From Bacillota bacterium (lineage in GTDB: Bacteria; Bacillota; Clostridia; Peptostreptococcales; Anaerovoracaceae): 64,000 nucleotides of DNA. The first letter of the stretch is position 1; each line of letters begins with the position of its first letter. Position numbers and translations under genes: made by a program. The notes under the pieces were generated by a model. That model saw only the letters and a list, made by a program, of their open reading frames with translations, was not told the DNA's origin and did no database searches. Location: contig JAQXQE010000006.1 of the NCBI GenBank assembly GCA_029101005.1, positions 114,483 to 178,482 on the forward strand, given 5' to 3'. Shown in pieces: positions 6,225 to 44,248 of the stretch.

Positions 6225-6243
6225 AACATATTAGAGCTGACAG

Positions 6244-21141: not shown

Positions 21142-21148
21142 GATTTTA

Positions 21149-21183
21149 GGCTCTAGAGAGAAATCTCTGGAGCCTTTGTTTTT
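21149..21183 (+). terminator. Element-supplied terminator after tRNA-Ser
   Basis: GGCTCTAGAGA-GAAA-TCTCTGGAGCC then TTTGTTTTT. Confidence 0.75.
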
Positions 21184-21412
21184 AGGGGATTCCTTGAAAT
21201 ATCAACATTTTCATGCTTCTACCAAAACGCACACAGACGCATACAGGGGTCGTACAAACTCACAGTTAAGGCGGTGAGTAAGGCGGCGGGAATGTGCGAA
21301 TCCGAAAATCGCAGTGCAAATTTTTACGAGTATGGCGCTTATTGAAGATGAATTACATGAGTTGTTGGCATATGCTGGCAGCTCATTATTTATTATCAGA
21401 AAGGATTTCATT

Positions 21413-22279: not shown

Positions 22280-22281
22280 AT

Positions 22282-22413
22282 ATGAAACTGAAACTAACAT
22301 ATGACGAAGTGAGAGTATTAGTATTTGCACTTAATGAACTTAGAAACCAGCTAATTCAGGAGAACAGATATACAGATGCAGTGGATGAACTTCTGATGAA
22401 ACTATGTAAGTGA
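22282..22413 (+). CDS. Small conserved protein MKLKLTYDEVRVLVFALNELRNQLIQENRYTDAVDELLMKLCK
   Basis: 43 aa ORF next to parB; paralogue at 41444-41587. Confidence 0.8.
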   Translation: MKLKLTYDEVRVLVFALNELRNQLIQENRYTDAVDELLMKLCK

Positions 22414-22421
22414 GCATATTC

Positions 22422-22474
22422 AATTCAGTCATTTTTGCTGAAATGACTGAATTGAAACAAGAAATGACTGAATT
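22422..22474. promoter_or_regulatory. Three repeated operator-like half-sites upstream of R-M regulator
   Basis: AATTCAGTCATTT, AAATGACTGAATT, AAATGACTGAATT. Confidence 0.6.
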
Positions 22475-22590
22475 AAAATACTATAGTTCACAATTAAAAT
22501 GTGCATATGCCAATTTCAAATTGCCAGAATGGGCAAGTGTGTTATAATGTTCTATAGTAAAGTGTATTAGAGAACACGAAAGGAAACATT

Positions 22591-22800
22591 ATGGCAGTTA
22601 ATTATAACCCACTCTGGCATTTGCTTATTGAGAAAGGTATGAAGAAAAAAGATCTTCGTGAGCTTGCAGGTATTAGCACAAATACACTTGCTAAGCTTGG
22701 TAAGAATCAGGATGTCAGCACTTCAATCATTGCTAAGATATGCACAGCATTAGACTGCAAGGTTGAAGATGTAATGGAATTTGTTCCAGAGAAAAAGTAA
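22591..22800 (+). CDS. XRE-family HTH regulator (R-M controller-like)
   Basis: 69 aa HTH; KKDLRELAGISTNTLAKLGK. Confidence 0.88.
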   Translation: MAVNYNPLWHLLIEKGMKKKDLRELAGISTNTLAKLGKNQDVSTSIIAKICTALDCKVEDVMEFVPEKK

Positions 22801-22816
22801 TTAAGAGGAGAAAGCA

Positions 22817-24379: not shown

Positions 24380-24382
24380 AGT

Positions 24383-25564
24383 ATGAGTAGATTAGATGAA
24401 CTGATTAAGGAACTCTGTCCAGAAGGAGTGGAGAAGAAAAGAATAGGCGATTTGTGCGAGATAAAACGTGGACGAGTAATGTCAAAAGACTATATTGCTA
24501 ATAATGCTGGGGAGTATCCAGTGTTCTCTTCTCAAACCGAAAATAATGGGGAGTTAGGTAGGATTAGCACATATGATTTTGAAGGCGAATACCTCACATG
24601 GACTACAGATGGTGCAAATGCTGGAACTGTTTTTTATAGAAAAGGACAATTCAGTGTAACAAATGTTTGCGGTCTACTTAATGCAAAATCTGAAATTATC
24701 CTAACAAAGTATCTATTTTATGCTTTAAGCATTGAAGCTCCTAAATATGTAAGTAGTGGAATGGGAAATCCAAAGCTTATGAGCAATGTGATGGCTAGGA
24801 TAAAGGTACATGTCCCACCACTTCCAGTGCAGGAAGAAATAGTAAAAATACTTGACAAATTCACGGATTATGTTACTGAGCTACAGGCTGAGCTACAGGC
24901 TGAGCTACAGGCTCGTAAACTACAGTATCAGCATTACTTAGATGCTTTCTATGACACCGAAAAGTATGAGATTATTCCGTTGGCATCTTTAGGTTCATTA
25001 ACAAGAGGAAAGAGGTTTGTACATGCAGATGCTACTGATAGTGGTGTTCCATGTGTTCACTACGGTGAACTGTATACATATTATGGAAGCCATGCAGATG
25101 CAGTAAAATCTCATATCCGCGAGGATTTACGACCTAAAATGAGATATGCAGACCCTGGAGATGTAATAATTGTTGGTGCGGGAGAGAATAATATAGATAT
25201 CGGGGTTGGCTTGTCGTGGGGAGGAAAAGAGCCTGTTGCCGTGCATGATGCCTGTTACACTCTGAAACATTCTCAGAATAGCCGATATATTTCATACTAC
25301 TTAAGATCATCGTATTATCATAACCAAATAAAACGTTGGGTATCTGAAGGAAAGATATGTTCTATTTCTGCTCAAAGTTTAGGAAAAGCGCTTATCCCTA
25401 TTCCCCCTATTGATGAACAAAATAGGATTGCAGAAATTTTAAGTGGCTTCGAGGAGTTGTGTAATGATATAGTATCTGGACTGCCAGCTGAAATCGAAGC
25501 GCGCCAGAAGCAATACGAATACTATAGAGATAAACTGCTTTCATTCAAGGAGATTGAATCATGA
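24383..25564 (+). CDS. hsdS: Type I R-M specificity subunit S
   Basis: Two target-recognition domains, conserved PPLPVQEEIVKILDKFTDYVTEL and PPIDEQNRIAEIL. Confidence 0.95.
   Translation: MSRLDELIKELCPEGVEKKRIGDLCEIKRGRVMSKDYIANNAGEYPVFSSQTENNGELGRISTYDFEGEYLTWTTDGANAGTVFYRKGQFSVTNVCGLLNAKSEIILTKYLFYALSIEAPKYVSSGMGNPKLMSNVMARIKVHVPPLPVQEEIVKILDKFTDYVTELQAELQAELQARKLQYQHYLDAFYDTEKYEIIPLASLGSLTRGKRFVHADATDSGVPCVHYGELYTYYGSHADAVKSHIREDLRPKMRYADPGDVIIVGAGENNIDIGVGLSWGGKEPVAVHDACYTLKHSQNSRYISYYLRSSYYHNQIKRWVSEGKICSISAQSLGKALIPIPPIDEQNRIAEILSGFEELCNDIVSGLPAEIEARQKQYEYYRDKLLSFKEIES
24877..24912 (+). repeat. Three perfect tandem 12-bp repeats in hsdS central region
   Basis: TGAGCTACAGGC x3 encoding ELQA repeats. 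Confidence 0.97.
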
Positions 25565-26487
25565 AACTAGGAAAGCTTAAAGAAGTAGATATTAGGAGCG
25601 TGTGGGCGCATGAACAATATGATTTCTCTAAATGGTTAGCGTCAGAAGAGAACATCAAAGAACTAAGTGATACATTGAACCTTTCATTAACTGACATTGA
25701 GACAGAGAAATTCGTAGGTTCATATCGTTGCGATATCATTTGTAAAGATGAGCTAACTGGTAAGAATGTACTTATTGAAAATCAGCTTGAGCAGACAAAC
25801 CACGATCATCTAGGAAAGATTATCACATATGCTTCGGGTTTGGATGCAAGTGTTATTGTTTGGATAGTTGCCAATGCTCGTCCAGAACATGCTAGCGCCA
25901 TTGAATGGCTAAATAAAAACACTACTGATGATGTGGCGTTCTTTCTCATAGAAGTCCATGCATACACCATTGGAGATTCTAGTCCGGCTCCAATGTTCAA
26001 AATAATTGAGCAGCCTAATGATTTTGCAAAAACAACAAAGTCACTGGCAAGTAAGGGGAATCTAAGCGAATCACAAATGTGTCGTCTTGAATTCTGGAAT
26101 ATGTTTAATGATGTTCTGGAAGAAAAAGGTAAGCCATTCAACAAACATAAAGCATCTACAGACCATTGGTACACAGTGGCAGTAGGTTCATCACAGTGCA
26201 GTATTTCAATTGATCTGGTAAACAAAGAACACAAAATCCGTGTAGGCTTATGGATCAATGATAACAAGGATATGTTTGACAGTATGTATTCTTACAAAGC
26301 AGAGATTGAAGCTGCTGCGGGTCAATCCTTAGATTGGTTTAGATTGGATGATAAAAAGGCATCTATTATTTCGCTGGATATCAAAGGATTAAACTTCAAG
26401 AAAAAAGATAATTATCCAGAACTAATGGATACAGTGATAGATAAGGTTGTTATTTTAAGAAATGCTATTAAACCTTATATAGGATAG
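25561..26487 (+). CDS. DUF4268-domain protein (PD-(D/E)XK-like N-terminus)
   Basis: VLIENQLEQTNHDHLGKIITYASGL typical of the DUF4268 N-terminal region. Confidence 0.8.
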   Translation: MKLGKLKEVDIRSVWAHEQYDFSKWLASEENIKELSDTLNLSLTDIETEKFVGSYRCDIICKDELTGKNVLIENQLEQTNHDHLGKIITYASGLDASVIVWIVANARPEHASAIEWLNKNTTDDVAFFLIEVHAYTIGDSSPAPMFKIIEQPNDFAKTTKSLASKGNLSESQMCRLEFWNMFNDVLEEKGKPFNKHKASTDHWYTVAVGSSQCSISIDLVNKEHKIRVGLWINDNKDMFDSMYSYKAEIEAAAGQSLDWFRLDDKKASIISLDIKGLNFKKKDNYPELMDTVIDKVVILRNAIKPYIG

Positions 26488-26502
26488 CATAGGAGGAAAA
26501 CC

Positions 26503-29500
26503 GTGCCATATTTCAACATAGTAGCACAGACAAATGAAAATACAGTCGTAACTGAATATGAACCAGTTAAGGTTAAGTCTGACAGTTATCAGAGCGAAGC
26601 GGAGTTAGAAAAGGACTTTATCAGAATGCTCCAGGAACAAGGCTACGAGTATCTTCAGATACATACAGAAGCAGACCTTGTTGCTAACCTGCGTGCGAAG
26701 CTTGAAGCTCTTAATAACTATTCCTTCACGAATAATGAATGGGATTTCTTCTTTAAGAATGCCATTGCTAATCAAAACGAAGGAATTGAAGATAAAGCTC
26801 GTAAGATTCAGGAAGACTATGTTCAGGTTCTTAAGAGAGACGATGGAACATCTAAGAACATCACTCTCATCGATAAGAAGAACATTCATAACAACAGTCT
26901 TCAGGTTATCAATCAGTATGAAGTATCGCAGGCCGAAGGTGCCAAGCATGACAACAGATACGACGTAACTGTACTTGTTAATGGATTCCCTCTTGTGCAT
27001 ATCGAGCTTAAGCGCAGAGGTGTCGCTATCAAGGAAGCCTTCAATCAGATTAACCGCTACCAGAGAGAGTCTTTCTGGGTAGGAAGCGGTTTATTTGAGT
27101 ACGTTCAGATATTTGTTATATCCAACGGAACAAATACTAAGTATTACTCTAACAGTACAAGATGGAATGCCATCAAAGATGCAAAGGCTGCAAATACCAA
27201 GAAGGAAAAGACAAGCAACAGTTTCGAATTTACATGCTACTGGGCGGATGCTAACAATAAAGTCATACCTGATCTTGTAGACTTTACTAGAACCTTCTTT
27301 GCTAAGCATACGATTCTTAATATCTTAACTAAATACTGTATTTTCACTTCTGAGCAGATGCTGATGGTTATGAGACCATACCAGATTACTGCTACTGAGA
27401 GAATTCTCAACAGAATTGAGATCGCAGATAACTATAAGAAATACGGAACAGTTGCAGGTGGCGGATATATCTGGCACACAACTGGTTCAGGTAAGACTTT
27501 GACATCGTTTAAGACTGCAAGACTTGCGTCAAACCTTCCATACATTGATAAGGTTCTCTTTGTCGTAGACAGAAAAGATCTGGACTACCAGACAATGAAG
27601 GAATACGACAGATTTGAGAAAGGTGCAGCCAACAGCAACTCATCAACAGCAGTTCTCAAGAAGCAGCTCGAGGATGATAATACTCACATTATCATTACAA
27701 CAATTCAGAAGCTGGCAACATTCATAAAGAAGAACAAAGGCCATGATGTATATCAGAAACACGTTGTAATCATCTTCGATGAATGTCATAGATCGCAGTT
27801 TGGTGATATGCATGCTGCAATCGTAAAGAATTTTAAGAAGTATCACATCTTCGGATTTACTGGAACTCCTATATTTGCAGAAAATGCCGGGGCAGTCAGA
27901 ACACCTCAGTTTATGACAACTGAGCAGACTTTTGGTGATCAGCTTCATACATATACAATCGTTGATGCAATTAATGACAAGAATGTATTACCTTTCAAAG
28001 TTGATTACATCAGCACAATGAAAGAAAAAGAAATACCTGACGAGGACGTCTGGGATATCGACAGAGAGAAAGCTATGATGGCTCCAAAGAGAATTTCTGT
28101 CGTAACAAAGTACATTCTTGATCACTTCGATAAGAAAACGTATCGAGGAGATAAGACATATATCTTCAATCAGCTCACCAATATTTCAGATGTTGCAGCT
28201 GGCAGAAACAAGGTAGAAGAAATCAAAGCAGCTCAGAGACTTAGCGGATTCAATTCAATATTTGCTGTTGCCTCAGTAGATATGGCTAAGCTGTATTACG
28301 AAGAGTTCAGGAAACAGATGGCTGAAGATCCATCAAAGAAGCTCAAGATAGCAACCATATACAGCTATGCTCCTAACGAAGAAGAGCCGGAAGGCGGTCT
28401 TCTTGATGAAGAAAATTCAGAGGATACTTCAGCACTCGATAAGAACTCAAGAGATTTCCTTGAAGAAACAATCAAGGATTATAACGAGATGTTCCATACA
28501 AACTACGATACATCAAGTGATAAGTTCCAGAACTATTACAAAGATGTTTCGCTTCGCATGAAGAATAAGGAACTGGATATGCTCATTGTAGTTAATATGT
28601 TCCTTACTGGTTTTGATGCGACAACACTCAATACTCTGTGGGTTGATAAGAATCTTAAGATGCATGGATTGATTCAGGCGTTCTCCAGAACAAACCGAAT
28701 CCTTAACAGCATCAAGACTTACGGTAACATAGTATGCTTCAGAAATCTCCAGAAGAAAGTTGATGAAGCCATAGCCCTCTTTGGCGACAAAGAAGCTGGC
28801 GGTATAGTTCTTCTTAAGAGCTTCCAGGAATACTACTACGGCTATCAAACTGCTGATGGCAAAGATATGCCAGGCTATGTGGATATGGTTGATGAACTCG
28901 TTGAGAGATTCCCTCTTGCAGTACCACAGATTGTTGGAGAAGAGAATCAGAAGAAATTCATTAAACTATTCGGAGCATTTCTCAAGATGAGAAATCTACT
29001 CAGTACATTCGATGAGTTTGAAGGAAAAGAGATTTTCTCAGATAGAGACCTTCAGGATTATCTTGGAAGGTATCAAGATTTAAAAGATATCTTCAGACCT
29101 GATGATAAAGAAAGTACTGACATTAATGATGACATTATTTTCGAAACAGAGCTGATAAAACAGATAGATATCAATATTGATTACATTCTTATGCTGGTTC
29201 AGAAATATCATGATGGACACATGCAGGATAAGGAAATCCTTGTTACTATTCAGAAAGCAGTTGGTGCTCACCCTGAACTCAGAAGCAAGAAACAGCTTAT
29301 CGAAATGTTCCTTGATAGCATTAACAATGTTAACGATGTGGTAACCGCTTGGAATGGGTTTGTAGAAAAGCAACGTGAAGATGATCTTGCAACAATCATT
29401 AGCGAAGAAAAGCTTAAGCCAGAAGAAACTCGTCGTTTCCTCGAAAAAGCTTTTGAAGACGGCGAAATCAAAGAAACTGGAACCGATATCGACAAGATTA

Positions 29501-29706
29501 TGCCACCGGTTTCCAGATTCGGAGGCGGCGCAAATAACAGAGCTGCAAAGAAGCAGACGGTTATCAGCAAGCTTAAAGGATTCTTCGAGAAGTACTTCGG
29601 AGTTGGAACAAAGTTCAAAGCAGTTCCTACAGAAGTTTACACGTTTGAGGAACCAGAAATGTTGATGGTTGCGGAAGAAACTAACGAATATTTTATAATT
29701 GAGTAA
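26503..29706 (+). CDS. hsdR: Type I restriction endonuclease subunit R
   Basis: VHIELKRRG nuclease motif, HTTGSGKTLTSF, FDECHRSQFG, GFTGTPIF. Confidence 0.96.
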   Translation: MPYFNIVAQTNENTVVTEYEPVKVKSDSYQSEAELEKDFIRMLQEQGYEYLQIHTEADLVANLRAKLEALNNYSFTNNEWDFFFKNAIANQNEGIEDKARKIQEDYVQVLKRDDGTSKNITLIDKKNIHNNSLQVINQYEVSQAEGAKHDNRYDVTVLVNGFPLVHIELKRRGVAIKEAFNQINRYQRESFWVGSGLFEYVQIFVISNGTNTKYYSNSTRWNAIKDAKAANTKKEKTSNSFEFTCYWADANNKVIPDLVDFTRTFFAKHTILNILTKYCIFTSEQMLMVMRPYQITATERILNRIEIADNYKKYGTVAGGGYIWHTTGSGKTLTSFKTARLASNLPYIDKVLFVVDRKDLDYQTMKEYDRFEKGAANSNSSTAVLKKQLEDDNTHIIITTIQKLATFIKKNKGHDVYQKHVVIIFDECHRSQFGDMHAAIVKNFKKYHIFGFTGTPIFAENAGAVRTPQFMTTEQTFGDQLHTYTIVDAINDKNVLPFKVDYISTMKEKEIPDEDVWDIDREKAMMAPKRISVVTKYILDHFDKKTYRGDKTYIFNQLTNISDVAAGRNKVEEIKAAQRLSGFNSIFAVASVDMAKLYYEEFRKQMAEDPSKKLKIATIYSYAPNEEEPEGGLLDEENSEDTSALDKNSRDFLEETIKDYNEMFHTNYDTSSDKFQNYYKDVSLRMKNKELDMLIVVNMFLTGFDATTLNTLWVDKNLKMHGLIQAFSRTNRILNSIKTYGNIVCFRNLQKKVDEAIALFGDKEAGGIVLLKSFQEYYYGYQTADGKDMPGYVDMVDELVERFPLAVPQIVGEENQKKFIKLFGAFLKMRNLLSTFDEFEGKEIFSDRDLQDYLGRYQDLKDIFRPDDKESTDINDDIIFETELIKQIDINIDYILMLVQKYHDGHMQDKEILVTIQKAVGAHPELRSKKQLIEMFLDSINNVNDVVTAWNGFVEKQREDDLATIISEEKLKPEETRRFLEKAFEDGEIKETGTDIDKIMPPVSRFGGGANNRAAKKQTVISKLKGFFEKYFGVGTKFKAVPTEVYTFEEPEMLMVAEETNEYFIIE

Positions 29707-29724
29707 TGTAAATAAGGAGAGTAA

Positions 29725-31746
29725 ATGAAAACAGATTTTCATATACACACAATTCCAACAAAATGGGATGCTCCATTTGAGTTTTCCATAGAAAAGCTGG
29801 TGGAATATGTTACATTGTTAGAAATAGATGCAATTGCAATAACAAATCATAACTGCTTTGATATAAATCAATTTAAACTCATTCAAACAAAACTTGAAGG
29901 AAAAGCAATGGTTTTCCCTGGAATAGAAGTAAATGTTGCGCCAAACAACGGTCATTTGTTAATTATTGCAGAGATGGATAATCTTGATAGTTTTTCGGAT
30001 GGTTGTAAGTTCATTGAACAAAACGTTGTAAATATTCATGACTCAATGGATATTATGGATATTGAGTCTGCTTTTGGCGGATTTAATAATTATCTATTAA
30101 TACCGCATTACGACAAAAGTCCGGCGATAAGCAAAGACGTAATTGAGCAATTGGGGGACAATATAATATGCGGTGAGGTAACAAGTGCTAAAAAGTATGT
30201 TCGAATGAAGAAATCTGATAAAATCACGCCTGTAATATTCAGCGATTGTAGAATATCTGACTCTCTGAATTATAACAAAACGAGACAAACCTATTTAACA
30301 CTTGGCGAGATCTCGATATCAGCACTTAAGCTTTGTTTGAAAGATAAATCTAAAGTAGCTCTTTCTGCTTTGATGAATGATGAAAAGTTTCAAGTTACAC
30401 CTAGTATTTGTATAGCAAACGGGCTTAATATTGTCATGGGGGAGCGTTCATCAGGGAAAACATACTTCCTAAATGAAATATCTGATGCAAATGAAAATGT
30501 AAAATATATCAAACAGTTTTCTTTATTAGAAAACAAAAGTGGGCAATCATTTGAGGACAGAATAAAAAGCAAAAAATCGAGCGATATTGCAGAATATTTT
30601 GATGAGTTTTCAAAAGTCGTTCGAGATATAAAGGGTGTCAGTTTTACCGATAACATGGAATCTTTGGGCAATTATTTGGATTCTTTAAAGAAAAATGCGG
30701 AAGAGTCAAATATGCAGGATGTATATTCTAAATGCAAGCTTTTTTCTGAAGTATCCTATACTGATGATGATTTACAGAGGATACAAGGTCTCATAAAATC
30801 AACAATGAATCTATTGGATTCAGATACATATAGAAAGATTATTGATTCAGTGATTCCGTATGAAAGGATGGTATTATTACTTGAGGTTTTATTGAACCAA
30901 TTTGAAACAGAAAAAGAACTCTCAATAAAAAAGAATTGGATTAATTCTGTTATTAATAATATTAAACAAGAGTTACAGGCGAATACATCGTCTACTATGA
31001 TAGAGGATATTGATTTCTATCAAATTGCGATGGATAACAAAAGGATCGATGCCTTTAACACTATTTCAAATAAGATAAAAGAAAATAGCGTCATTTTATC
31101 TGAAGAACTAGGAAAGTTTTCGTTAGTTGCTGAAAAGAGACCGTTTGATGGAGCTGGTGAAATGAAGGCTTATAGTGGAAAAGTGTTAAAGTTTTCAGAT
31201 GCATTTCTTCTATACGATAAACCATACGAATTTCTTCAAAAACTAAAAGAAATAGATTCTTTAGATGAAAGCACATATCATGAATTTTTTGCTAAAGTGA
31301 ATTATAAGATATTGAATCAGTATGGTTTGGAAGTTTCTGGTGGGGAACAATCCGAATTTAATCTTCTAAATGAAATAACAAAAGCAAGACAATATGAAAT
31401 ACTGTTGATTGATGAACCAGAATCATCGTTTGATAATGTGTTCTTAAAATCTGATGTTAATAAAATGTTAAAAAGTATATCAGAAGAAATGCCCGTAGTT
31501 ATTGTAACTCACAATAGTACTGTAGGGGCATCGATTAACGCAGATTACCTGATATATACTCGACGAGATATTAATAATGGTAAAGTTGTATTTAGAAGGT
31601 TTATGGGAAGACCGGGGGATACATTCTTAGTGGACGATTCTGGAGAAAAATCACAAAACATTGATGCACTTCTATCATGTTTTGAAGCTGGAGATGATGC
31701 GTATCAGCAAAGGAGAAATGATTATGAAATACTTAAAAATAGATAA
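29725..31746 (+). CDS. PHP-domain protein fused to RloC/SbcC-like ABC ATPase
   Basis: N-terminal DFHIHT, ITNHN, GIEVN; Walker A GERSSGKTYF, signature VSGGEQ, Walker B ILLIDEPESSFD, VIVTHNS. Confidence 0.83.
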   Translation: MKTDFHIHTIPTKWDAPFEFSIEKLVEYVTLLEIDAIAITNHNCFDINQFKLIQTKLEGKAMVFPGIEVNVAPNNGHLLIIAEMDNLDSFSDGCKFIEQNVVNIHDSMDIMDIESAFGGFNNYLLIPHYDKSPAISKDVIEQLGDNIICGEVTSAKKYVRMKKSDKITPVIFSDCRISDSLNYNKTRQTYLTLGEISISALKLCLKDKSKVALSALMNDEKFQVTPSICIANGLNIVMGERSSGKTYFLNEISDANENVKYIKQFSLLENKSGQSFEDRIKSKKSSDIAEYFDEFSKVVRDIKGVSFTDNMESLGNYLDSLKKNAEESNMQDVYSKCKLFSEVSYTDDDLQRIQGLIKSTMNLLDSDTYRKIIDSVIPYERMVLLLEVLLNQFETEKELSIKKNWINSVINNIKQELQANTSSTMIEDIDFYQIAMDNKRIDAFNTISNKIKENSVILSEELGKFSLVAEKRPFDGAGEMKAYSGKVLKFSDAFLLYDKPYEFLQKLKEIDSLDESTYHEFFAKVNYKILNQYGLEVSGGEQSEFNLLNEITKARQYEILLIDEPESSFDNVFLKSDVNKMLKSISEEMPVVIVTHNSTVGASINADYLIYTRRDINNGKVVFRRFMGRPGDTFLVDDSGEKSQNIDALLSCFEAGDDAYQQRRNDYEILKNR

Positions 31747-32023
31747 TGGTGCAGCTTACTTTCGTGATGAGGATTCTAATTATACATCAATCGAAAAAAT
31801 AACAAAGGAAGATTTAATGGAACTTATTAATAGAGTTGTTGATGACACTGTCTGTTTTGAAATGGATGATTTTGAAGAAAAAATAATTCAGAACCCGGCT
31901 CATAAGATAATCTATTCAAATTTATATAAAAAGTTCTTATCTTTACTGAGTGATGGGAATAGGTTTAAAGACGAAAGTAAATCAATCTATTTAGATGCAA
32001 AGATTAAATATAATATTAATTAA
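31724..32023 (+). CDS. Small (99 aa) uncharacterised protein, translationally overlapping the PHP-ATPase
   Basis: ATG after AGGAG, overlaps upstream stop by 23 nt. Confidence 0.7.
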   Translation: MKYLKIDNGAAYFRDEDSNYTSIEKITKEDLMELINRVVDDTVCFEMDDFEEKIIQNPAHKIIYSNLYKKFLSLLSDGNRFKDESKSIYLDAKIKYNIN

Positions 32024-32037
32024 TCAACTACATCGCC

Positions 32038-32076
32038 GCCAGGCTTTCAATTCGGAAAGTCGGGCGGCTTTTATAT
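32038..32076 (+). terminator. Terminator hairpin ending the R-M/PHP operon
   Basis: GCCGCCAGGCTTTCAATTCGGAAAGTCGGGCGGCTTTT. Confidence 0.7.
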
Positions 32077-32106
32077 TGCCCGGATTTCGGGCGGAAAGGA
32101 GGTCTT

Positions 32107-33084
32107 ATGGACCAGAATTATGAAAATTTAAGAATCATTTCAGGCTCAGAGATTGAGCCCAAGGAAGTCGACTGGCTGTGGTATCCGTATATTCCTTACG
32201 GCAAGATTACCATAGTACAGGGTGACCCAGGCGAAGGCAAGAGCACTTTCGTGCTGAATCTTGCTGCCATGCTGACGACTGGCACACCACTCCCCTACTC
32301 TACCGAAGAGTATGAACCGATGAATATCATCTATCAGAACACTGAGGATGATGCAGAAGATACGGTTGTTCCCCGCTTCATAAACGCAGGCGGAGATCTC
32401 AATCGTATCTTTTTTATTGATGAGAGAAGCCAGGCACTGAGTTTTGCGGACGACAGAATCGGCGAGACGATTAGAAGAACCGGTGCGAAGCTCATCATAT
32501 TTGATCCGCTTGCTTCATATATCGGAGCTGAAGTTTCTCTCAATCAGGCCAACGAAGTGCGTTCACAGATGAACTACCTCATCGACATTGCAAAGGAAAC
32601 CGGCTGTGCTGTTATCGTAGTTGCGCACATGAACAAGATGTCAGGAGCGAAAGCAATGTACCGCACGTCGGGGTCTATCGACATAGTAGCTTCGGCGAGA
32701 AGCTGTCTTCTGATTGGAACTGCACCTGAGGATCAGACCAAAAGAATCATGGCTGTTCAGAAATCTAACCTGGCTGAGAAAGGAAAAGCTATCGAGTTTG
32801 GCATCGAGGACAGCAAAGTTGCCTTCCTTCGCCAGCTGGATATGACAGCAGATGAACTCGTGAACAGTTATCCTTCGACTGGTTCCCGAAGAAAAACCAA
32901 GCGCGAGATGGCCAAGGAAGTATTACTTGAAATGCTGACTAATGGGCCGAAGACTCAACGGGACGTGATGGATGCAATGGATGAACTTAACATCAGCAAG
33001 CGCACCGTTGATGATGCCAAGCGTGAACTCGGGGTCGAATCCATGCGTGTAAAGGACGCCTGGATATGGCACTACGAGTCATAG
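32107..33084 (+). CDS. RepA-like AAA/RecA-fold ATPase (replicative helicase-like)
   Basis: GDPGEGKSTF Walker A, LIIFDPLASYIG Walker B, VVAHMNK. Confidence 0.85.
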   Translation: MDQNYENLRIISGSEIEPKEVDWLWYPYIPYGKITIVQGDPGEGKSTFVLNLAAMLTTGTPLPYSTEEYEPMNIIYQNTEDDAEDTVVPRFINAGGDLNRIFFIDERSQALSFADDRIGETIRRTGAKLIIFDPLASYIGAEVSLNQANEVRSQMNYLIDIAKETGCAVIVVAHMNKMSGAKAMYRTSGSIDIVASARSCLLIGTAPEDQTKRIMAVQKSNLAEKGKAIEFGIEDSKVAFLRQLDMTADELVNSYPSTGSRRKTKREMAKEVLLEMLTNGPKTQRDVMDAMDELNISKRTVDDAKRELGVESMRVKDAWIWHYES

Positions 33085-33093
33085 CGATGGCAT

Positions 33094-33434
33094 CAGGGCA
33101 AGAACGCAACATTCTCATAGTGAACGGAAGAGTCCCTGAAACATGCGATGTTGCTTTTGCCCTGCAAGGGGGTCAAGGGGTATTCCCCTTGCGAACGACC
33201 TATGCAATAGGTGTAGTGAGTTACTCATATGGGATGCAGAAGCGGCCTTGCGAGGGTTTCAGATGGAAACCTCTCGCTTAGTCGCTTCTTTTGATATGAG
33301 GGTCGAGGATGCAGACTCTCATACTCATCCGGCATCCCTTATGAGTACAGCAGGTTAACCCGGAGGGAATGGCATTGAGTGAAGAATGCAAAAGACAGCG
33401 CTTCAAGGGTGTCAATGTGGAATGTTGCGTTCTT
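33094..33434 (+). ncRNA. Candidate large structured RNA / origin-of-transfer region upstream of mobV
   Basis: 15-bp perfect long-range IR 33100-33114/33420-33434; 16-nt helix (1 mismatch) 33222-33237/33332-33347; nested hairpins. Confidence 0.6.
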
Positions 33435-33463
33435 CCTCTCAATGCAGAAAGGAGCGAAATGAA

Positions 33464-34441
33464 ATGGCAAACTATACGATACTGAGAATTGAAAAGAGAA
33501 AGCTTAATGCCGTCACCAGGATATGCAATCATCATGAGCGACTGAAGGAACAGTACAAGAGCAATCCTGACATTGATCCTGAAAGAACACATCTCAACTA
33601 TCATCTGTACGAGCCGAAGGATAGATACAGAGCAGCTGTCCTTGGCAGAATCGAAGAGGCAGGAGCAAAGCGAAGAAAGGACAGCGTTGTTCTTCAGGAT
33701 TCGATTGTAACTGCATCACCTGACTGGATAAATAATTTAAGTCAGCAGGAGCAGAGAGAGTTCTTCGAAAGAGCATATGCCTTTTTCACAAAGACCTTCG
33801 GAGAAGAGAACATGATCTCTGCTGTTGTCCACATGGACGAAACCAATCCTCACATGCATGTCTGTTTTGTTCCCATAACAAAAGACAACAGACTTTCATC
33901 GAAGGATATCATCGGAGGTCCAAGAGGGCTGGTTAAGCTGCAGGACGATTTTTATTCTCACATGCAGGAGAGGTTTCCTGATTTAAGTAGGGGTCTTTCA
34001 AGAAAGATTACTCAGCGCAAGCATATACCGACAGAGTTCTACAAGAATGCTGACAACCTGATGTCACATTACGAAGAGATTGTAAATGCAATCAATGATA
34101 TCGGAGTGTTTAGGAACGGAGAGAAGAGAGAAGCTGCCATCACTCTTCTCGGAAGGTATGCTCCTGAGATGGCACAGATGAACAGACAGCTCAAGATGAC
34201 GGATAACTATGTTACAAGACTTGAGAATGCAATAACTGATTACAAGAAGTCTAATGCAAACAAGAACGATATCATCTACGACCAGAGAGAAGAGATCGAG
34301 CAGCTTAAAAATAAAGTAAGCGAACTTAATTTCAATCAGAGGAAGCTTCAGAGAGTAATTGATAAGATACCGCCTGATGTTATGGATCAGATGAAAAAAG
34401 ATGAGAGAGCAAGACGAAGAGCAGAAAGAGAGGCACGCTGA
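33464..34441 (+). CDS. MobV/Pre-family relaxase
   Basis: ANYTILRIEKRK, ERTHLNYHL, VVHMDETNPHMHVCFVPI; start set at MANYT. Confidence 0.93.
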   Translation: MANYTILRIEKRKLNAVTRICNHHERLKEQYKSNPDIDPERTHLNYHLYEPKDRYRAAVLGRIEEAGAKRRKDSVVLQDSIVTASPDWINNLSQQEQREFFERAYAFFTKTFGEENMISAVVHMDETNPHMHVCFVPITKDNRLSSKDIIGGPRGLVKLQDDFYSHMQERFPDLSRGLSRKITQRKHIPTEFYKNADNLMSHYEEIVNAINDIGVFRNGEKREAAITLLGRYAPEMAQMNRQLKMTDNYVTRLENAITDYKKSNANKNDIIYDQREEIEQLKNKVSELNFNQRKLQRVIDKIPPDVMDQMKKDERARRRAEREAR

Positions 34442-34674
34442 TGAAGAATGTGCAGATACCGCTTACGCTTTTCCTAAAGCTTTATGGTTATGTCGTGCTT
34501 GGCAACTATCAGTTTCATGATGATATCGTCAGGCAGCTTGAGGACAAGCACCGGAAAGTCTACAGCCATCTTCTCTACACAACCAGTAAGACAGCAAAAA
34601 CCGAAGAGGAACGAGAAGAAGCAAGACAAAAGTATCTTGATGAAGTCGGAATGAAAGATTCATACAGATACTGA
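34441..34674 (+). CDS. Small accessory protein downstream of mobV
   Basis: 77 aa ORF overlapping mobV stop. Confidence 0.65.
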   Translation: MKNVQIPLTLFLKLYGYVVLGNYQFHDDIVRQLEDKHRKVYSHLLYTTSKTAKTEEEREEARQKYLDEVGMKDSYRY

Positions 34675-34691
34675 CTCGTTATCAGATTATG

Positions 34692-34714
34692 ACAGCTGTG
34701 TGGCACACAGCTGT
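34692..34714. repeat. Perfect 10-bp-stem palindrome
   Basis: ACAGCTGTGT-GGC-ACACAGCTGT. Confidence 0.9.
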
Positions 34715-34748
34715 TAATTTCTTATACAGAAAGAGAGGTACGTTAATT

Positions 34749-35099
34749 ATGATTAAACACATTAGTATTGATAAGTTATATCCTTTTGAGGAAGTATTAT
34801 TCTCCCTTGATGATAACGATGAGATGGAGATGCTCATTGATAGCATCAAGGAGTTTGGAGTTCTCCAGCCTATCATTGTCAGGAAGGCTTCATACGGTTA
34901 TGAAGTTATTTCAGGCAATAGAAGACTCTATGCAGCGTGCATGGCAGACTATGAAACAGTTCCTGCTATTATAATGGATCTTACAGATGAAGAAGCGATT
35001 GCGGTAATGGTCGATTCTAATCTGCACAGGAATATACTGCCGAGCGAGAAAGCTTTTTCCTACAAAGCAAAATATGAGGCTCTTGAGAGTCTTAAGTAG
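34749..35099 (+). CDS. Truncated ParB-like protein (N-terminal domain only)
   Basis: ISGNRRLYAACMA, NLHRNILPSEKAFSYKAK then stop; lacks HTH present in the ParB at 21413. Confidence 0.8.
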   Translation: MIKHISIDKLYPFEEVLFSLDDNDEMEMLIDSIKEFGVLQPIIVRKASYGYEVISGNRRLYAACMADYETVPAIIMDLTDEEAIAVMVDSNLHRNILPSEKAFSYKAKYEALESLK

Positions 35100-35213
35100 T
35101 GAACTCCATATGGGGATGAGCCGCCTATTAATCTGGCGACTCATTCCTACAAAACGAACGCTTGTTCTTTTAGCGTGCTTAGCTTATACTATTACTATCA
35201 ATGATGCAAAGGA

Positions 35214-35969
35214 ATGAAAAAATTTATGGCAGAAAAGAAAACCAAGCGCGTCTTCGCAGGCTACTACGAACGCTATGACCTTGTTAATATTCATGTGGCA
35301 ATGGTTGTCGATGATGTAGATTCCGGTGAAAAAATCGTGTTATTCACATACGAAGGAAAACATGACGATGGCAAGAATCATGCTATCTCACTAAAATCGT
35401 TTTGTGAGGAAGTCGAGTATCACGGCAATGTTTGCCCGAAATTCAAAAGGAAAACGCAGCGTTACAAGAACAAATACTATGAAGAAGAACTTTCAGATGC
35501 CGGACTAAAAGTTCCGCGCAGACATGTTAAGAAAGAGAAACCTTGCTATACTATCCGAACATGCCGACGCTGTTCTTCATATGAGGAATATGCTAAGGAC
35601 ATGTGCGTTCACTATTCGGAAGATCTGAACAGGTACAATCAGACAGCGAAGATGAAACGCTGTGTCGGAGTTATGGGTAAGTCCGAGTTTGCTGCCCTAA
35701 AGGAAGATCTGACGTTCCTGCAGGATTGTTTCAATACTTCACTAAAACAGTACCTGCCAATGTTCAAGATGATATATGTCAAGGGCGTTTCAATAAGGAA
35801 CTGTGCAGAGGAGCTTGGAAAGAATCGCGGCAGTATCGAATATGCCAAAAAGAAAATGCTGGATGAATTGGCTGCCTTGCTCAGATATCGAGACGAGATA
35901 GATAATACTTCCAGATTAAATATGAACTATTCAGGCGAAGAACCATCGTTCATAGATAGATACAGATAA
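35214..35969 (+). CDS. Sigma-70-region-4/HTH-like protein
   Basis: C-terminal FKMIYVKGVSIRNCAEELGKNRGSIEYAKKKMLDEL HTH-like. Confidence 0.55.
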   Translation: MKKFMAEKKTKRVFAGYYERYDLVNIHVAMVVDDVDSGEKIVLFTYEGKHDDGKNHAISLKSFCEEVEYHGNVCPKFKRKTQRYKNKYYEEELSDAGLKVPRRHVKKEKPCYTIRTCRRCSSYEEYAKDMCVHYSEDLNRYNQTAKMKRCVGVMGKSEFAALKEDLTFLQDCFNTSLKQYLPMFKMIYVKGVSIRNCAEELGKNRGSIEYAKKKMLDELAALLRYRDEIDNTSRLNMNYSGEEPSFIDRYR

Positions 35970-36103
35970 TTATTTAAACTTATAGCAATTTATCACCAGA
36001 GACATTTGTTGAGACACGGCAGATGTCTTTTTTGTTATGTCAAATTACGACGATACCTAATGAAATGTCCTGTATGTGAGAGGATGAATAATTTCCCCAG
36101 ACG

Positions 36104-36564
36104 AAGAATGACAGTTTACGACATTGCCTAATGCCCTGTCTAACAAGTGAAGGGACATTGCTCTCAATACAACTGAATACACATTCATCAGGTACTTTAA
36201 CTATGAGAGGCGAAAGCTACAGCATGCATGACGATGCGCCAAGACCTTCCCATGGGAGTGAGCGATAAAGCCCTAGCCCCGAAGCTTTGCTTCGGAGGCA
36301 GGTCTTATGCGAGAGGCACAGGACTTATAGTCCGTGGTGCTTACCGCAAATGTCTCGTCTGAAAGACAGGTGGCACCTGCCAAGTGCGATGATCCTCATA
36401 GAACACAATGATACTCCCGTCCAGTCACAGCCCCATAGGAATATGGGATCACGCAATGAGGGCGGCCTGGAGAGAACCTCGAGGGGGCTAGTAACCCGTG
36501 AAGCAGTTTGCCAGCTGCTGCCTTATGTATTCCTGATTCCCGGGGCGTTGAGGACAAAATGGGA
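36104..36564 (+). ncRNA. Structured repeat element, copy A (with 82-nt optional insert 36266-36347)
   Basis: Extended homology to 42481-42859; compensatory changes in CCCATA-GGAA-TATGGG hairpin. Confidence 0.65.
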
Positions 36565-36571
36565 TTCCTGG

Positions 36572-36620
36572 CATAGAAATGCGCTTTTTGTACTTTTTCT
36601 GCAAAAAAAGCATTTCTATG
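36572..36620. promoter_or_regulatory. 11-bp inverted repeat upstream of AAA/RloB operon
   Basis: CATAGAAATGC ... GCATTTCTATG. Confidence 0.5.
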
Positions 36621-36683
36621 TTGAATAATTTATTGTGCGATGGTAATCTAATACTGTACACATAATTGAAGGAGGATAAGATT

Positions 36684-37943
36684 ATGTTAATACAGTTTTC
36701 AGTAAGGAATTATATGTCCCTGAAAGATGAAACAACACTTAGTTTAGTTGCAGGTCAGGGAAAAGAATTAAAGGATAACTTAAGACAGTATAAAGATGGT
36801 AATCTACTTCCTACAATTGCAATTTTTGGAGCAAATGCGGCTGGTAAGAGTAACATTTTTAAGGCTATGACAGCAGCAATTAATATCATCAGAAGTTCTA
36901 ACGAAAGACAGATTGATCGCCCAATTCCGTTCATAGTTCCATATGCGTTTGATTCAGAATGTAGGATAAATCCATCAACCTTTGATTTTATATTCATTGT
37001 CAATGGTAAAAAATATCAATATGGATTCTCGGCAGATCAATATAGGATCTATGATGAGTATTTGTATTTATATAAGACAAAGATACCATCACTTATATTC
37101 GAGCGTACCAATACCCGTGAGTATAACTTTACTTCAGCTAATGAAAGTAAATTAAAAAAATACATTGAAAAAACATCCGATAATAAACTGTTTTTATCTA
37201 CAGCAACAAACTGGAATAGTGACTTGACTAGAAATGCATATATTTGGTTTGCAAATTGTGTTGATACCTACAATGATTCAAGTTTCAAATTAAATCCAGG
37301 TACGCTGGAAGTCTTCGATAATGGCGGAGAGGCACTAGAAGATTTTGTTACTTCGTTGTTAAAAACTGCAGATATTAACATTAGTGGTTATAATATAGAG
37401 TCAGAAATCGTTGATGCACCGAATATTCTGGTTGGCGATTTACCTCCAGGTATTCAAATAAATGCTCCTCAGAAGATGAAACATTTTATGTTAAGCACTA
37501 ATCATATAATTAATAATGGTCAGGAAATTACTGAGTTTACATTGCCTTTGGAAGAAGAATCAGAAGGAACTCAAAGAATATTTGCTTTTGGACCAATTAT
37601 CAAGGATGCCCTTGAGCGTGGTAGAACACTTGTTGTTGATGAAATAGATAATAGCTTGCATCCTCTTTTCTTGGAGTATTTAATCAGTCTTTTTAACAAC
37701 AAAGAATCAAATCCGAATAACGCGCAGTTAATATTCAACACTCATTCGGTTGAGGTACTGTCTCTGGACTTATTCAGACGAGATCAAATATATTTTGTTG
37801 AAAAGAATAACGATGACGGAGTAACAGAACTGTATGCATTAGATGAGTTTTCTCCAAGAAAAACCGAGAATATAAGAAAAGGATATTTACAAGGGAGATA
37901 TGGTGCTGTTCCTAATATTGGTTGGGAGGATCTCAAATGGTAA
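36684..37943 (+). CDS. AAA family ATPase, AbiLi/RloA-like
   Basis: FGANAAGKSNIFKA, TLVVDEIDNSLHP, IFNTHSVEVL; followed by RloB gene. Confidence 0.85.
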   Translation: MLIQFSVRNYMSLKDETTLSLVAGQGKELKDNLRQYKDGNLLPTIAIFGANAAGKSNIFKAMTAAINIIRSSNERQIDRPIPFIVPYAFDSECRINPSTFDFIFIVNGKKYQYGFSADQYRIYDEYLYLYKTKIPSLIFERTNTREYNFTSANESKLKKYIEKTSDNKLFLSTATNWNSDLTRNAYIWFANCVDTYNDSSFKLNPGTLEVFDNGGEALEDFVTSLLKTADINISGYNIESEIVDAPNILVGDLPPGIQINAPQKMKHFMLSTNHIINNGQEITEFTLPLEEESEGTQRIFAFGPIIKDALERGRTLVVDEIDNSLHPLFLEYLISLFNNKESNPNNAQLIFNTHSVEVLSLDLFRRDQIYFVEKNNDDGVTELYALDEFSPRKTENIRKGYLQGRYGAVPNIGWEDLKW

Positions 37944-38554
37944 AATCCAAGGAAAAGCAAAGAGGAAAAGTTAGAAAACAACGAGCAAAGTTTGTTGTTA
38001 TTGGTGTCGAAGGAAAAAACAAAACCGAGAGAAACTATTTCCATGACTTTTTCAAGACAAACAAGGAGTATAAAGTAAAGTTCTCTTCTTCAGGAGATAC
38101 TGATCCTGAAGGAATCGTGACTGATACAATAAAGTACATACAAAAAGAGGAAATCAATCTTAATGATGGAGATGTAGCATTCTGTTTTGTTGATACTGAT
38201 ACAGATATCACTAAGCAGCCTCAAATTGACAAGGCATTAAAGCTTGCAAGCGATAACGGGATTGAACTCCTATTATCCAATCCTTGCTTTGAAGTTTGGT
38301 ATATTCAGCATTTTAATTACAGCACAAGATCTTTTGCAAATAATGCAGCAGTAATTGCCGAGTTACAAAAGCACATTCCTAGTTACGAAAAGAATACATC
38401 GGCATATTCACAACTGGTAGGAAAAACCGAAGATGCTATAAATAATGCTGAAAAACTAGAAAAATATCATGACGGTTTAGGAAACAAAGAAAAGCATATT
38501 TCAAGGAACCCTTCATCTGAAGTATTCAAAGCAATAAAAGCTTTCAAACAGTAA
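37922..38554 (+). CDS. RloB-domain protein (AbiLii-like)
   Basis: VGVEGKNKTERNYF, VAFCFVDTDTD, SNPCFEVWYIQHF. Confidence 0.85.
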   Translation: MGGSQMVKSKEKQRGKVRKQRAKFVVIGVEGKNKTERNYFHDFFKTNKEYKVKFSSSGDTDPEGIVTDTIKYIQKEEINLNDGDVAFCFVDTDTDITKQPQIDKALKLASDNGIELLLSNPCFEVWYIQHFNYSTRSFANNAAVIAELQKHIPSYEKNTSAYSQLVGKTEDAINNAEKLEKYHDGLGNKEKHISRNPSSEVFKAIKAFKQ

Positions 38555-38676
38555 ATAGTTGACTCAATTTGGTATGCAAGCAAAGAATTCAGTAAACGCA
38601 ACGTTTTCAGCAATATGATTTCGTTGACTGATAGTTGATTGCTAAAATCGATAAGGACAATATAAACAATCTATTT

Positions 38677-38717
38677 AGAAGACATTTGTCAATTAAGACA
38701 GGTGTCTTCTTTTTTAC
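38677..38717 (+). terminator. Terminator hairpin after RloB gene
   Basis: AAGACATTTGTCAATTAAGACAGGTGTCTTCTTTTTT. Confidence 0.7.
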
Positions 38718-38859
38718 ATCATAGATATGCAAGGAATAAGCCTATGCATATTAGCGAAGCGAATGCAAGTCTGCGATTGGTAGCTTAGCAATTCGCACAT
38801 TAGATTCCAACCGGAATCAGTATTACTATGATTATGCTGATTTCAGAAAGGATTTTAAC

Positions 38860-39099
38860 ATGTTAATGAACACCCCGGAAACTTACGGATCATCTGCCCT
38901 TGCTTGTGACGTGAAATTTTATTCGATTCCGGAACTGCAGAAAATGACAGGCTGGAGTGAAAAGACAGTACAGAAACTTTTTAACGATCCGGAATTTCCT
39001 GCTACTGACTTTGGTAGAACAAAGCTTGTGGAGGCGCATGCGCTAATTAATTATTTTTCGAAAAGAAGATGCAAGAATACAAATAGATATTGGAAATAG
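38860..39099 (+). CDS. Excisionase-like HTH protein
   Basis: 79 aa; YSIPELQKMTGWSEKTVQKLFNDPEFPATDFGRTKLV; directly upstream of integrase. Confidence 0.85.
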   Translation: MLMNTPETYGSSALACDVKFYSIPELQKMTGWSEKTVQKLFNDPEFPATDFGRTKLVEAHALINYFSKRRCKNTNRYWK

Positions 39100-39111
39100 G
39101 AGAAAAGAATT

Positions 39112-40293
39112 ATGGCAAGAAAGACTAAGACACCTAAGAACCCTAACAAGCGCGCTGAGAGAGGCACAGGCTCAATCAGACTCAAGGATAACGGCAAGTA
39201 TGAATACAGAATCACTTACAAGGACGCCTATGGCAACAGCAGAAGAAAAACATTCACTTCTTACTATGAGGATGAATGCTATGAGATGTGTGAAGAGTTC
39301 CTCCTGAACCTCGATAAAATGAACTACGGTGTTCGTATGGAGGCAACTATCCCCGATCTGGTTGAAGCATACTACCAGCGAAGACTGGATATGAATTATG
39401 TTCAGCCTCAGGGATATCACCGCAGCATGGAGACACTTAAGATTATTAGAAGAAGTTTAATCGGAGGAATGCCGATACAGGATGTCGAGAAAGAACATAT
39501 TCTCATATTCCTGAGAAGCATCACTAAGTATGCAGACAGCACTATTGAGAAACTGTACCTTCAGCTTCAGAAGGCTTTTGCTCTAGCTGTGAACAAGAAA
39601 ATCATCAAAGATAATCTTATGCTTGATGAAGACCTTGTAAGACCAAGATCAAAGAAGCCGACCAAAGAAGTTGTCAGTCTTACACAGGAGCAGCAGAAGA
39701 TATTCCTTGATACGCTGAATGCTCACAAGGTTCCTGCTTACAGAAATAATTACAAGAAGCAGCTGCTCCTCGCTCTGAATACTGGAATGCGTATGGGAGA
39801 AATCAATGCGCTTAAGAAGTCGGATATAGATTTCAAACGCAAGATAATCAAGGTTAGAAGAACCATTTCACTCGGTGAGAAATCTATTCCATTTCTTAAT
39901 GATACAACCAAGACAGATGCAGGAAGAAGAGATATCCCATTCACCGAAGCAGTTGAGAAGCTTCTGAGAGAAGTCATTGCAGAGAGCAAGTCTAACCCTG
40001 ATAACCTGCTGTTCTACGACTACAATAAGATGAGCCTTATTACGACAAATCAGGTCAACAGCTTCTTCAACAGAATCTGTAAGAAAGCCGGCCTTGAAAT
40101 CACGGGTCAGCACGCGTTAAGACATACCTTCGCAACCAGATGCATTGAAGCTGGTGTTGAAGCAATTGTTTTGAAAAAATGGATGGGACACACTGATATT
40201 CATGTTACACTAGACCAGTACGCAGATGTCTTTGACAGCATGCATAACAACTCAATCAATAAGCTTGAAGCACATATGATAACGATTGCATAG
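39112..40293 (+). CDS. int: Tyrosine recombinase/integrase
   Basis: NTGMRMGEINALKKSD, HALRHTFATRCIEAG, MGHTDIHVTLDQYAD. Confidence 0.96.
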   Translation: MARKTKTPKNPNKRAERGTGSIRLKDNGKYEYRITYKDAYGNSRRKTFTSYYEDECYEMCEEFLLNLDKMNYGVRMEATIPDLVEAYYQRRLDMNYVQPQGYHRSMETLKIIRRSLIGGMPIQDVEKEHILIFLRSITKYADSTIEKLYLQLQKAFALAVNKKIIKDNLMLDEDLVRPRSKKPTKEVVSLTQEQQKIFLDTLNAHKVPAYRNNYKKQLLLALNTGMRMGEINALKKSDIDFKRKIIKVRRTISLGEKSIPFLNDTTKTDAGRRDIPFTEAVEKLLREVIAESKSNPDNLLFYDYNKMSLITTNQVNSFFNRICKKAGLEITGQHALRHTFATRCIEAGVEAIVLKKWMGHTDIHVTLDQYADVFDSMHNNSINKLEAHMITIA

Positions 40294-40382
40294 AGATTAA
40301 GGAGTCGAAAGCCTTCGAGTCATGGCGAAAATCAGCGGCAGACCTTGAAAACAGGGCAAAACATACAGCCTATCAGTCTGCC

Positions 40383-40393
40383 GTCCTCCGCCA
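40383..40393 (+). repeat. attR core
   Basis: GTCCTCCGCCA identical to tRNA 3' end. Confidence 0.88.
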
Positions 40394-42103: not shown

Positions 42104-42478
42104 ATGGAGAAATGTAATGTTATTGCCGTATGCAATCAGAAAGGTGGTGTTGGAAAGACCGCCACCGCACTCAATCTGGGTGTCGGTCTTGCAAACGAGA
42201 GCCGCAAGGTTCTTCTCATTGATTGCGATCCACAGGCTGATCTGAGTGCTTCTTTAGGCATCCATAATCCTGATGAACTTGATGTAACACTTTCAGATCT
42301 TATGGAGAAAGTAATCAAGGACAAGCAGATTGTTCCAGAGGAAGGCATTATATCTCATAAGGAAGGTGTTGACCTGATACCTTCCAACATAGGACTTTCC
42401 TCTATGGAGATGCAGCTTGTAAACATTATTGGCAAGGTTAAGAAAAATCTGAATCCCAAGGCAAATGAATCCCACTGA
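42104..42478 (+). pseudogene. Truncated ParA-family ATPase
   Basis: [33 protein letters not shown]; then MQLVN joined to [10 protein letters not shown] and stop at start of repeat copy B. Confidence 0.8.
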
Positions 42479-42480
42479 CC

Positions 42481-42859
42481 AAGAATGACAGTTTATGACG
42501 CTGCCTAATGTCGTGGCTAACAAGTGAAAGGACATTTCTCTCAATACAACTGAATACACATTCATCAGGTACGTTAACTATGAGATGCGAAAGCTACAGC
42601 ATGCATGACGATGCGCCAAGACCTTCCTCTGGAAGTGAGCGACAATGTCTCGTCTGAAAGACAGGTGGCACCTGCCAAGTGCGATGACACTCATAGAATA
42701 TAATGATACTCCCGTCCAGTCACAGCCCTGCAGGAATGCGGGATCACGCAATGAGGGCGGCTCGGAGAGAACCTCGGAGGGGTTAGATTCCCGTGAAGCA
42801 GTTTGTCAGCTGCTGCCTGATGCATTCCTGATTTCCGGGCTGTCGTGGACAAAATGGGA
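42481..42859 (+). ncRNA. Structured repeat element, copy B
   Basis: Homologous to 36104-36564; CCTGCA-GGAA-TGCGGG hairpin with compensatory changes. Confidence 0.65.
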
Positions 42860-43027: not shown

Positions 43028-44248
43028 TTGAAAAGCAAGGAATACGTATTACTCAAAAGTCTATATTATGACAATAAAGAAGAATACGATGAACTGTACA
43101 ACAGCAGATTTAATGCAAGTGATTGCATTCATCTGAATTTCTCAATTGCTGGTAACCCTGCTTTCTTTATGGAAACACCGGAGCTAATTAAAAAAGTTGT
43201 TGCGATCACTAGACTTGATAAAGATATCTCACTATTATCACATTCTCTCCCAGGGGTTGCACTTAAGCAGTATATCAACAAATGCTTGATTGATGAGATT
43301 GTCATAACTAATAACATCGAAGGTGTCCATAGTACTCGTAAAGAAATTGGCGAGATACTTGATGACCTTGAAGGAAAAAGCGACAAGAGATTCTTTGGTC
43401 TAGTTAATAAATATAATGCATTAATGACTGGCAATTATATAGCTATAAAAGACAGTCATGAGGTCCGCGCTCTGTATGACGAAATGTTCCTTTCGGAAAT
43501 CATTGAAGAAAACCCGAAAGACGAACCTGATGGTGAGATTTTCAGAAAGGATCATGTTGACGTAGTTGATCCAACACAGAAAGTCATTCATCATGGTGTG
43601 TATCCAGAAAGCAAAATTATTGACAGCATGAACGATGCCATCAATATACTAAATGATTCTACGATAGAACCTCTATTCAGGATATCAATTTTCCATTATT
43701 TGTTTGGATATATTCACCCGTTCTACAATGGCAACGGACGTCTGAACAGGTTCATAAGCAGCTATTATTTAGCCAATACGCTTGAATCAATTATGGGATA
43801 TCGCCTGTCTTATACGATAAAAGAAAACATCAATAAGTATTACAAGAGTTTTAAGATAGTAAACGAAGAAATTAATAAAGGTGATATAACGCCATTTATA
43901 TTCACTTATCTGGATTTTATTAAGGAATCCGCAATCAATCTGAGAAATGGTCTTATGGAAAAAGCACAGCGTTTGGAAGCTTTTGCAAAACAGCTGGAAA
44001 CTTTGCCAAATGGCAATGACGAGAAGTATAGCCGCTTATATTACTATTTACTGCAGGCTTCTCTGTTCTCTGAAATTGGTATTTCGATTAGTGAGTTGCT
44101 TAATTACTTAAATATCACCAGACCAACGTTACAGAAGCGTTTAAGTGAAATAGATAAACACGGTTTATTGATTACTGAAAAACGTGATGCAAACAAATTC
44201 TACCAGTTAAATCTCGAAAATTTAGCCGAGATGATGACAACCAAATAA
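43028..44248 (+). CDS. Fic-domain protein with autoinhibitory-type helix and C-terminal winged helix
   Basis: HPFYNGNGRLNR catalytic motif; TNNIEG matches [ST]xxxE[GN]; TTG start after AAAGGAGG. Confidence 0.92.
   Translation: MKSKEYVLLKSLYYDNKEEYDELYNSRFNASDCIHLNFSIAGNPAFFMETPELIKKVVAITRLDKDISLLSHSLPGVALKQYINKCLIDEIVITNNIEGVHSTRKEIGEILDDLEGKSDKRFFGLVNKYNALMTGNYIAIKDSHEVRALYDEMFLSEIIEENPKDEPDGEIFRKDHVDVVDPTQKVIHHGVYPESKIIDSMNDAINILNDSTIEPLFRISIFHYLFGYIHPFYNGNGRLNRFISSYYLANTLESIMGYRLSYTIKENINKYYKSFKIVNEEINKGDITPFIFTYLDFIKESAINLRNGLMEKAQRLEAFAKQLETLPNGNDEKYSRLYYYLLQASLFSEIGISISELLNYLNITRPTLQKRLSEIDKHGLLITEKRDANKFYQLNLENLAEMMTTK

Follow-up and report, generated by a model that had tools for sequence, protein, structure and literature searches.

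A repeated RNA before two defence-like loci of a Bacillota genome probably unites the Rfam pemK RNA with the processive antiterminator canT of Tn916

Introduction

What does a repeated, apparently structured unit do that stands once before an ATPase-RloB gene pair and once before a fic gene of the same bacterium? Both copies lie in a window of 64,000 nucleotides (the whole stretch of DNA analysed here) from a Bacillota bacterium of the Anaerovoracaceae (GenBank assembly GCA_029101005.1, contig JAQXQE010000006.1, positions 114,483 to 178,482). A preliminary description made from the letters had offered two options: a mobile structured RNA related to transposon guide RNAs, or a regulatory or antitoxin RNA for the downstream gene. 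In the orf8-xis interval of Tn916, a 452-bp fragment named canT has been described as a cis-acting, orientation-specific, processive antiterminator, which is active with heterologous promoters and terminators and acts through three terminators in series (Wirachman and Grossman 2024, PMC11658703). We propose that the two window copies, the Rfam pemK RNA (representing the core) and Tn916 canT (the experimentally studied member) very probably belong to one RNA family acting as a cis antiterminator. The window copies are further members of a known RNA, and the interest lies in the link between pemK RNA and canT. In the literature that was searched, neither a link between pemK RNA and canT nor one between BoxA and Tn916 came up, which is not proof of novelty.

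Results

Two copies of a discrete RNA unit

All window features given below are on the + strand. The repeat search aligned 36087-36268 with 42464-42645 (89% identity) and 36349-36564 with 42644-42859 (88%); between these blocks about 80 nt (36269-36348) are found in copy A only, as a hairpin extension near the site of inserts of up to 147 nt in many relatives. The alignment starts at 36087/42464 and ends at 36564/42859, with the sharp divergence of the flanks that had been described for copy A at 36104-36564 and copy B at 42481-42859. Both are real, discrete copies of a structured RNA, 88-89% identical outside the one insert, and they are the only two in the 1.6-Mb genome. The RNA domain proper, counted from closing stem to closing stem, spans 36187-36526 in A and 42564-42821 in B.

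Both copies exceed the gathering threshold (34.8 bits) of RF02913, "pemK RNA", in Rfam 15, copy A with 53.4 bits at 36405-36501 and copy B with 71.1 bits at 42700-42796. The preliminary description had allowed that a clear Rfam match might explain the repeat away; the match is clear, but it is confined to a 61-position core and has no function assigned to it. The conserved RNA measures 260-420 nt; the RF02913 model leaves out P1, the stem that closes it, as well as stem P2, a kissing loop and a BoxA-like segment farther upstream. A sub-threshold match to the hsp17 thermometer at 36640 was taken as chance.

The extent of the family was followed with an nhmmer profile, seeded with copy B and extended on fetched loci from the genus, from a phylum sample and from a pattern scan of named genomes; the pattern scan and the genome family searches were queried with the core, the search among relatives with the long sequence. 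The profile recognizes copy B and both halves of copy A, and it matches 192 of 193 fetched loci at E<1e-4, mostly near full length. RF02913 matches occur in 21 of 47 genomes of the genus and in 31 of 399 genomes of the phylum sample. BLASTN with copy B gave no match against plasmids and four short fecal-phage matches only against phages, because the RNA is too divergent for BLASTN. Ten IMG/VR contigs (L224-L233) carry the RNA by pattern, all ten confirmed by the profile. Matches were also seen on MAG contigs labelled Alistipes (L112), Melainabacteria (L081) and Micrarchaeota (L133), which may be binning errors.

A covarying architecture with a kissing loop

Mutual information was calculated from 108 non-redundant sequences without any prior structure, and its top pairs nest into stems. 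The final alignment of 339 columns contains helices P1, P2, P3 and P7 to P10 as well as a kissing loop joining two hairpin loops, a pseudoknot that forms part of the covarying architecture together with the closing stem. In copy A, covariation places P1 at 36187-36193 with 36520-36526, P2 at 36200-36207 with 36395-36402, and the kissing-loop strand TGGC at 36371-36374 opposite GCCA at 36510-36513. The corresponding elements of copy B are P1 at 42564-42570 with 42815-42821 and TGGC at 42666-42669 opposite GTCA at 42805-42808, which includes a G-U pair. Folding of copy A as a single sequence recovered P2 and P7 to P10, and P1 in part.

Over 47 pairs in the 108 sequences, 91.0% standard pairs were counted against a mean of 71.1% and a maximum of 72.6% in 200 shuffles and 40-46% with slid partners, and 1036 compensatory cells against a shuffle maximum of 386; these figures support the structure and are not probabilities, since the shuffles ignore sequence relatedness and the helices were picked on the same alignment. 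Compensatory changes are present in 43 of the 47 pairs. The hairpin from which covariation had originally been argued (CCCATA/TATGGG in A, CCTGCA/TGCGGG in B) is real, but it belongs to a variable apical extension and the stronger covariation lies elsewhere.

Relationship to canT of Tn916

Two reference elements were compared, one of Tn916 type on pCF10 (L219), the other Tn1549-like on pMG2200 (L222). A profile built without them matches their orf8-xis gaps with E values of 8.7e-31 and 3.2e-34, respectively, and RF02913 exceeds its gathering threshold in both gaps. The same profile gave no match in three Tn1545-type integrase loci that have no orf8-xis gap.

The published loss-of-function changes map to the shared core. 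According to the Methods of the canT study, the inactivating ATA>TGC substitution starts 283 nt past the orf8 stop, and a 162-bp deletion covers nt 229-390 (PMC11658703). With the orf8 stop of L219 at 2261, the substitution corresponds to 2544-2546, where L219 has ATA, and the deletion to 2490-2651. The RF02913 match of L219 is 2544-2644, so that the substitution alters exactly the three bases with which this match begins, and the core is lost entirely in the deletion. L219 stands here for the Tn916 record, which is supported by the exact ATA register and by an orf5 of 83 codons with alanine at codon 30. The segment AUAAUGAUACU, in which canT is inactivated, is conserved in the window as ACAATGATACT in copy A and ATAATGATACT in copy B. 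A 400-bp canT fragment has been reported to be active yet insensitive to the inactivating substitution, and the authors considered that activity could not be read from the predicted structures (PMC11658703). An RF03532 match (SQ2397, a cis-regulator of an HTH factor) was seen upstream of the sigma-like gene of L219 (1095-1324); the match in L222 is weaker and below gathering.

The BoxA-like segment

In many family members a segment such as TGTTCTTTGAAAACTGAATA stands about 18-30 nt 5' of P1. It is near-identical to the BoxA of rrn leaders and spacers of the hosts, a kind of site also present in lambda nut; the rrn sequences compared came from other genomes, that of Mogibacterium from a single relative (L218). 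A BoxA pattern composed after the loci had been seen occurs, with at most two mismatches, in 69 of 156 loci; among 362 control stretches, 2 have it. Unlike those of many family members, the segments of the window copies are degenerate (CTCTCAATACAACTGAATA at 36161-36179 in copy A, upstream of P1; 42538-42556 in copy B). The active 452-bp canT fragment begins 126 nt after the orf8 stop, which is inside BoxA in L219, so the 5' half of BoxA is dispensable in the canT assay. Judged from sequence, the degenerate segments of A and B and the start of the canT fragment would both speak against a required role of BoxA. In many loci, the interval from the stop codon of the sigma-like gene to the RNA contains, as judged by eye, a terminator-like stem CCCCTC/GAGGGG; its 3' arm could alternatively pair with a later CCCCTC before BoxA, a possible switch.

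Genomic context of the family and of copy A

A sigma-region-4-like gene on the same strand ends at most 700 nt upstream, usually about 36-39 nt before the RNA match, in 79 of the 139 loci with sufficient upstream sequence; of 54 upstream proteins that were aligned, 42 have a Sigma70_r4_2 match with E<=0.01. Downstream, a serine or tyrosine recombinase is encoded within 4 kb on the same strand in 54 of the 69 loci with more than 2.5 kb of downstream sequence, and on the opposite strand in 2; PemK follows in 24 of these 69. The recurring downstream families are recombinases, the Tn916-type integrase, PemK, HTH_17 excisionase, RepA-type AAA_25 and ParA. Predicted terminators downstream of the RNA are only moderately enriched: 69 of 151 windows have one, compared with 143 of 485 random ones, and the enrichment is equal on both strands. 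A search across the loci for a clean terminator at a constant spacing past the RNA found none.

Copy A resides in an integrative mobilisable element of 19.25 kb (21131-40393) inserted in a tRNA-Ser gene and bounded by an 11-base direct repeat, GTCCTCCGCCA, which forms attL at the 3' end of tRNA-Ser (21131-21141) and attR at 40383-40393. A relative (G062) has the empty site, with both flanks contiguous (149 bases, 89%). Besides ParB, HsdM, HsdS and HsdR of a type I restriction-modification system, a RepA-type ATPase, a Mob relaxase, AbiL, Xis and Int, the element encodes a DUF4268 protein (PADLOC PDC-S11) and a 673-aa protein (PDC-M49A). The right end is ordered as sigma-like gene (35214-35969; weak, Sigma70_r4_2 E=0.0099), predicted terminator (35998-36030), RNA, AbiL pair, predicted terminator (38677-38710), excisionase-like HTH_17 protein (38860-39099; E=0.00013), tyrosine integrase (39112-40293) and attR. 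The gene pair after copy A had been described as AAA-RloB, which holds: an AAA_21 ATPase (36684-37943, ATG with Shine-Dalgarno at 36684) and an RloB-like protein (37922-38554) have AbiLi and AbiLii as their best PADLOC matches. The placement of copy A fits that of canT, which lies between the sigma-like/orf8 module and xis-int: a sigma-like or HTH module, the RNA and xis-int follow one another on the same strand, with cargo intervening in copy A.

A predicted terminator separates copy A from the sigma-like gene, which complicates the assignment of a promoter; a consensus promoter scan gave sites no more frequent than in shuffles. Close to the left end, within the element, a strong terminator is predicted at 21148-21175, in the position that T1 has in Tn916. 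Elsewhere in the window, a 58-nt intergenic direct repeat is found at 1541-1598 and 6233-6290 (91% identical).

Discussion

One alternative is that the unit is left over from a transposon guide RNA (TnpB or IscB omegaRNA, HEARO or RAGATH-18 type) as a mobile structured RNA, as had been suggested from the motif GTGAAGC; pemK RNA has been listed beside RAGATH-18, itself the scaffold of an omegaRNA, in a set of RNAs located close to defence genes (PMC11061315). We regard this as highly improbable, given that neither HEARO nor RAGATH nor another guide RNA matched in Rfam at gathering or at E<=1, that the genes recurring beside the RNA encode recombinases, PemK, Xis, RepA and ParA, with tnpB and iscB absent from the recurring groups inspected, and that the homology with canT, including its mutants, leads in another direction. 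Just as little credit can be given to a conserved protein-coding sequence or an untranslated recombination spacer. Short overlapping ORFs are present and the repeats could act as points of homologous exchange for cargo, but the compensatory changes, the lack of a Pfam match in the 113-aa ORF across the unit and the demonstration that orf5, which overlaps canT, does not function as a protein (PMC11658703) argue for a structured RNA, as first described.

An antitoxin-like or gene-specific regulatory RNA for rloAB, fic, pemK or similar toxin or defence genes would account for the position of both window copies before such genes, for the frequency of PemK downstream and for the Rfam name and "Cis-reg" type. 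The RNA, however, stays constant while the downstream genes vary widely (recombinases, Xis, PemK, RepA, ParA, AbiL, Fic), a recombinase lies downstream in most loci, and in Tn916 the RNA stands before xis and affects terminators that are unrelated to it (PMC11658703). The suggested role on downstream genes is supported, whereas a gene-specific antitoxin is not and appears very unlikely to us. Slightly less remote, although still improbable, is a conventional attenuator or riboswitch that folds alternatively with a nearby terminator, controls the next gene only and leaves the polymerase unmodified. Terminators often flank the RNA, and ahead of it, past the stop codon of the sigma-like gene, a terminator and alternative pairings can be seen, but no terminator follows at a fixed position, and canT is active when promoters and terminators are heterologous, also across three consecutive terminators (PMC11658703).

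A processive antiterminator is the reading that we prefer. Cis-acting processive antitermination has been demonstrated for Tn916 only, and for copies A and B we infer it; copy A is likely to be active. The RNA would be transcribed at the head of the accessory or xis-int segment of an integrative element and would fold while emerging, with P1, P2, a compact core and the kissing loop between two hairpins. It would then act in cis on its own polymerase, so that later terminators are ignored. From copy A, transcription is predicted to pass the terminators around abiL and enter xis-int, the terminator in the abiL/xis interval being one that the RNA would need to overcome. After excision and circularisation, transcription might continue through the T1-like terminator at the left end and across the joined ends into the parB, restriction-modification and mobilisation genes, all of which are on the + strand. 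Copy A differs from canT in the AbiL cargo between RNA and xis, in the hairpin extension of about 80 nt, in the degenerate BoxA segment (shared with copy B) and in its carrier, a tRNA-Ser integrative mobilisable element instead of an ICE such as Tn916. The same kind of action, a cis RNA rendering polymerase terminator-resistant, is attributed to HK022 put, EAR of B. subtilis and conAn2 of pLS20. EAR had no Rfam match in the window, and bases 1-50000 of pLS20 gave no profile match.

The wider proposal is that the pemK RNAs of Firmicutes form one BoxA-linked, kissing-loop-locked family of processive antiterminators that load onto RNA polymerase and couple cargo, excision and transfer genes via a single transcript; we consider it moderately probable. 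The pemK-canT link would unite an orphan Rfam RNA with an antiterminator previously described apart and give pemK RNA a function, and it comes with a comparative structure of testable helices and a testable kissing loop. It points to a possible connection with rrn-type BoxA, and it predicts that many integrative elements, some with abortive-infection or toxin-like genes, use this RNA to cross terminators.

Copy B lies outside the element that carries copy A, upstream of fic and within what is left of a second element; its antiterminator activity is less likely than that of A, because its surroundings resemble a remnant. The placement seen for canT is lacking here: a parA remnant (42104-42478) stands upstream and there is no integrase. 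As had been described, a Fic-domain gene follows (43028-44248, best PADLOC match SoFic). The parA gene is cut off where copy B begins, which suggests that recombination has created a junction at this RNA; a parA of roughly normal length follows the RNA in four other loci.
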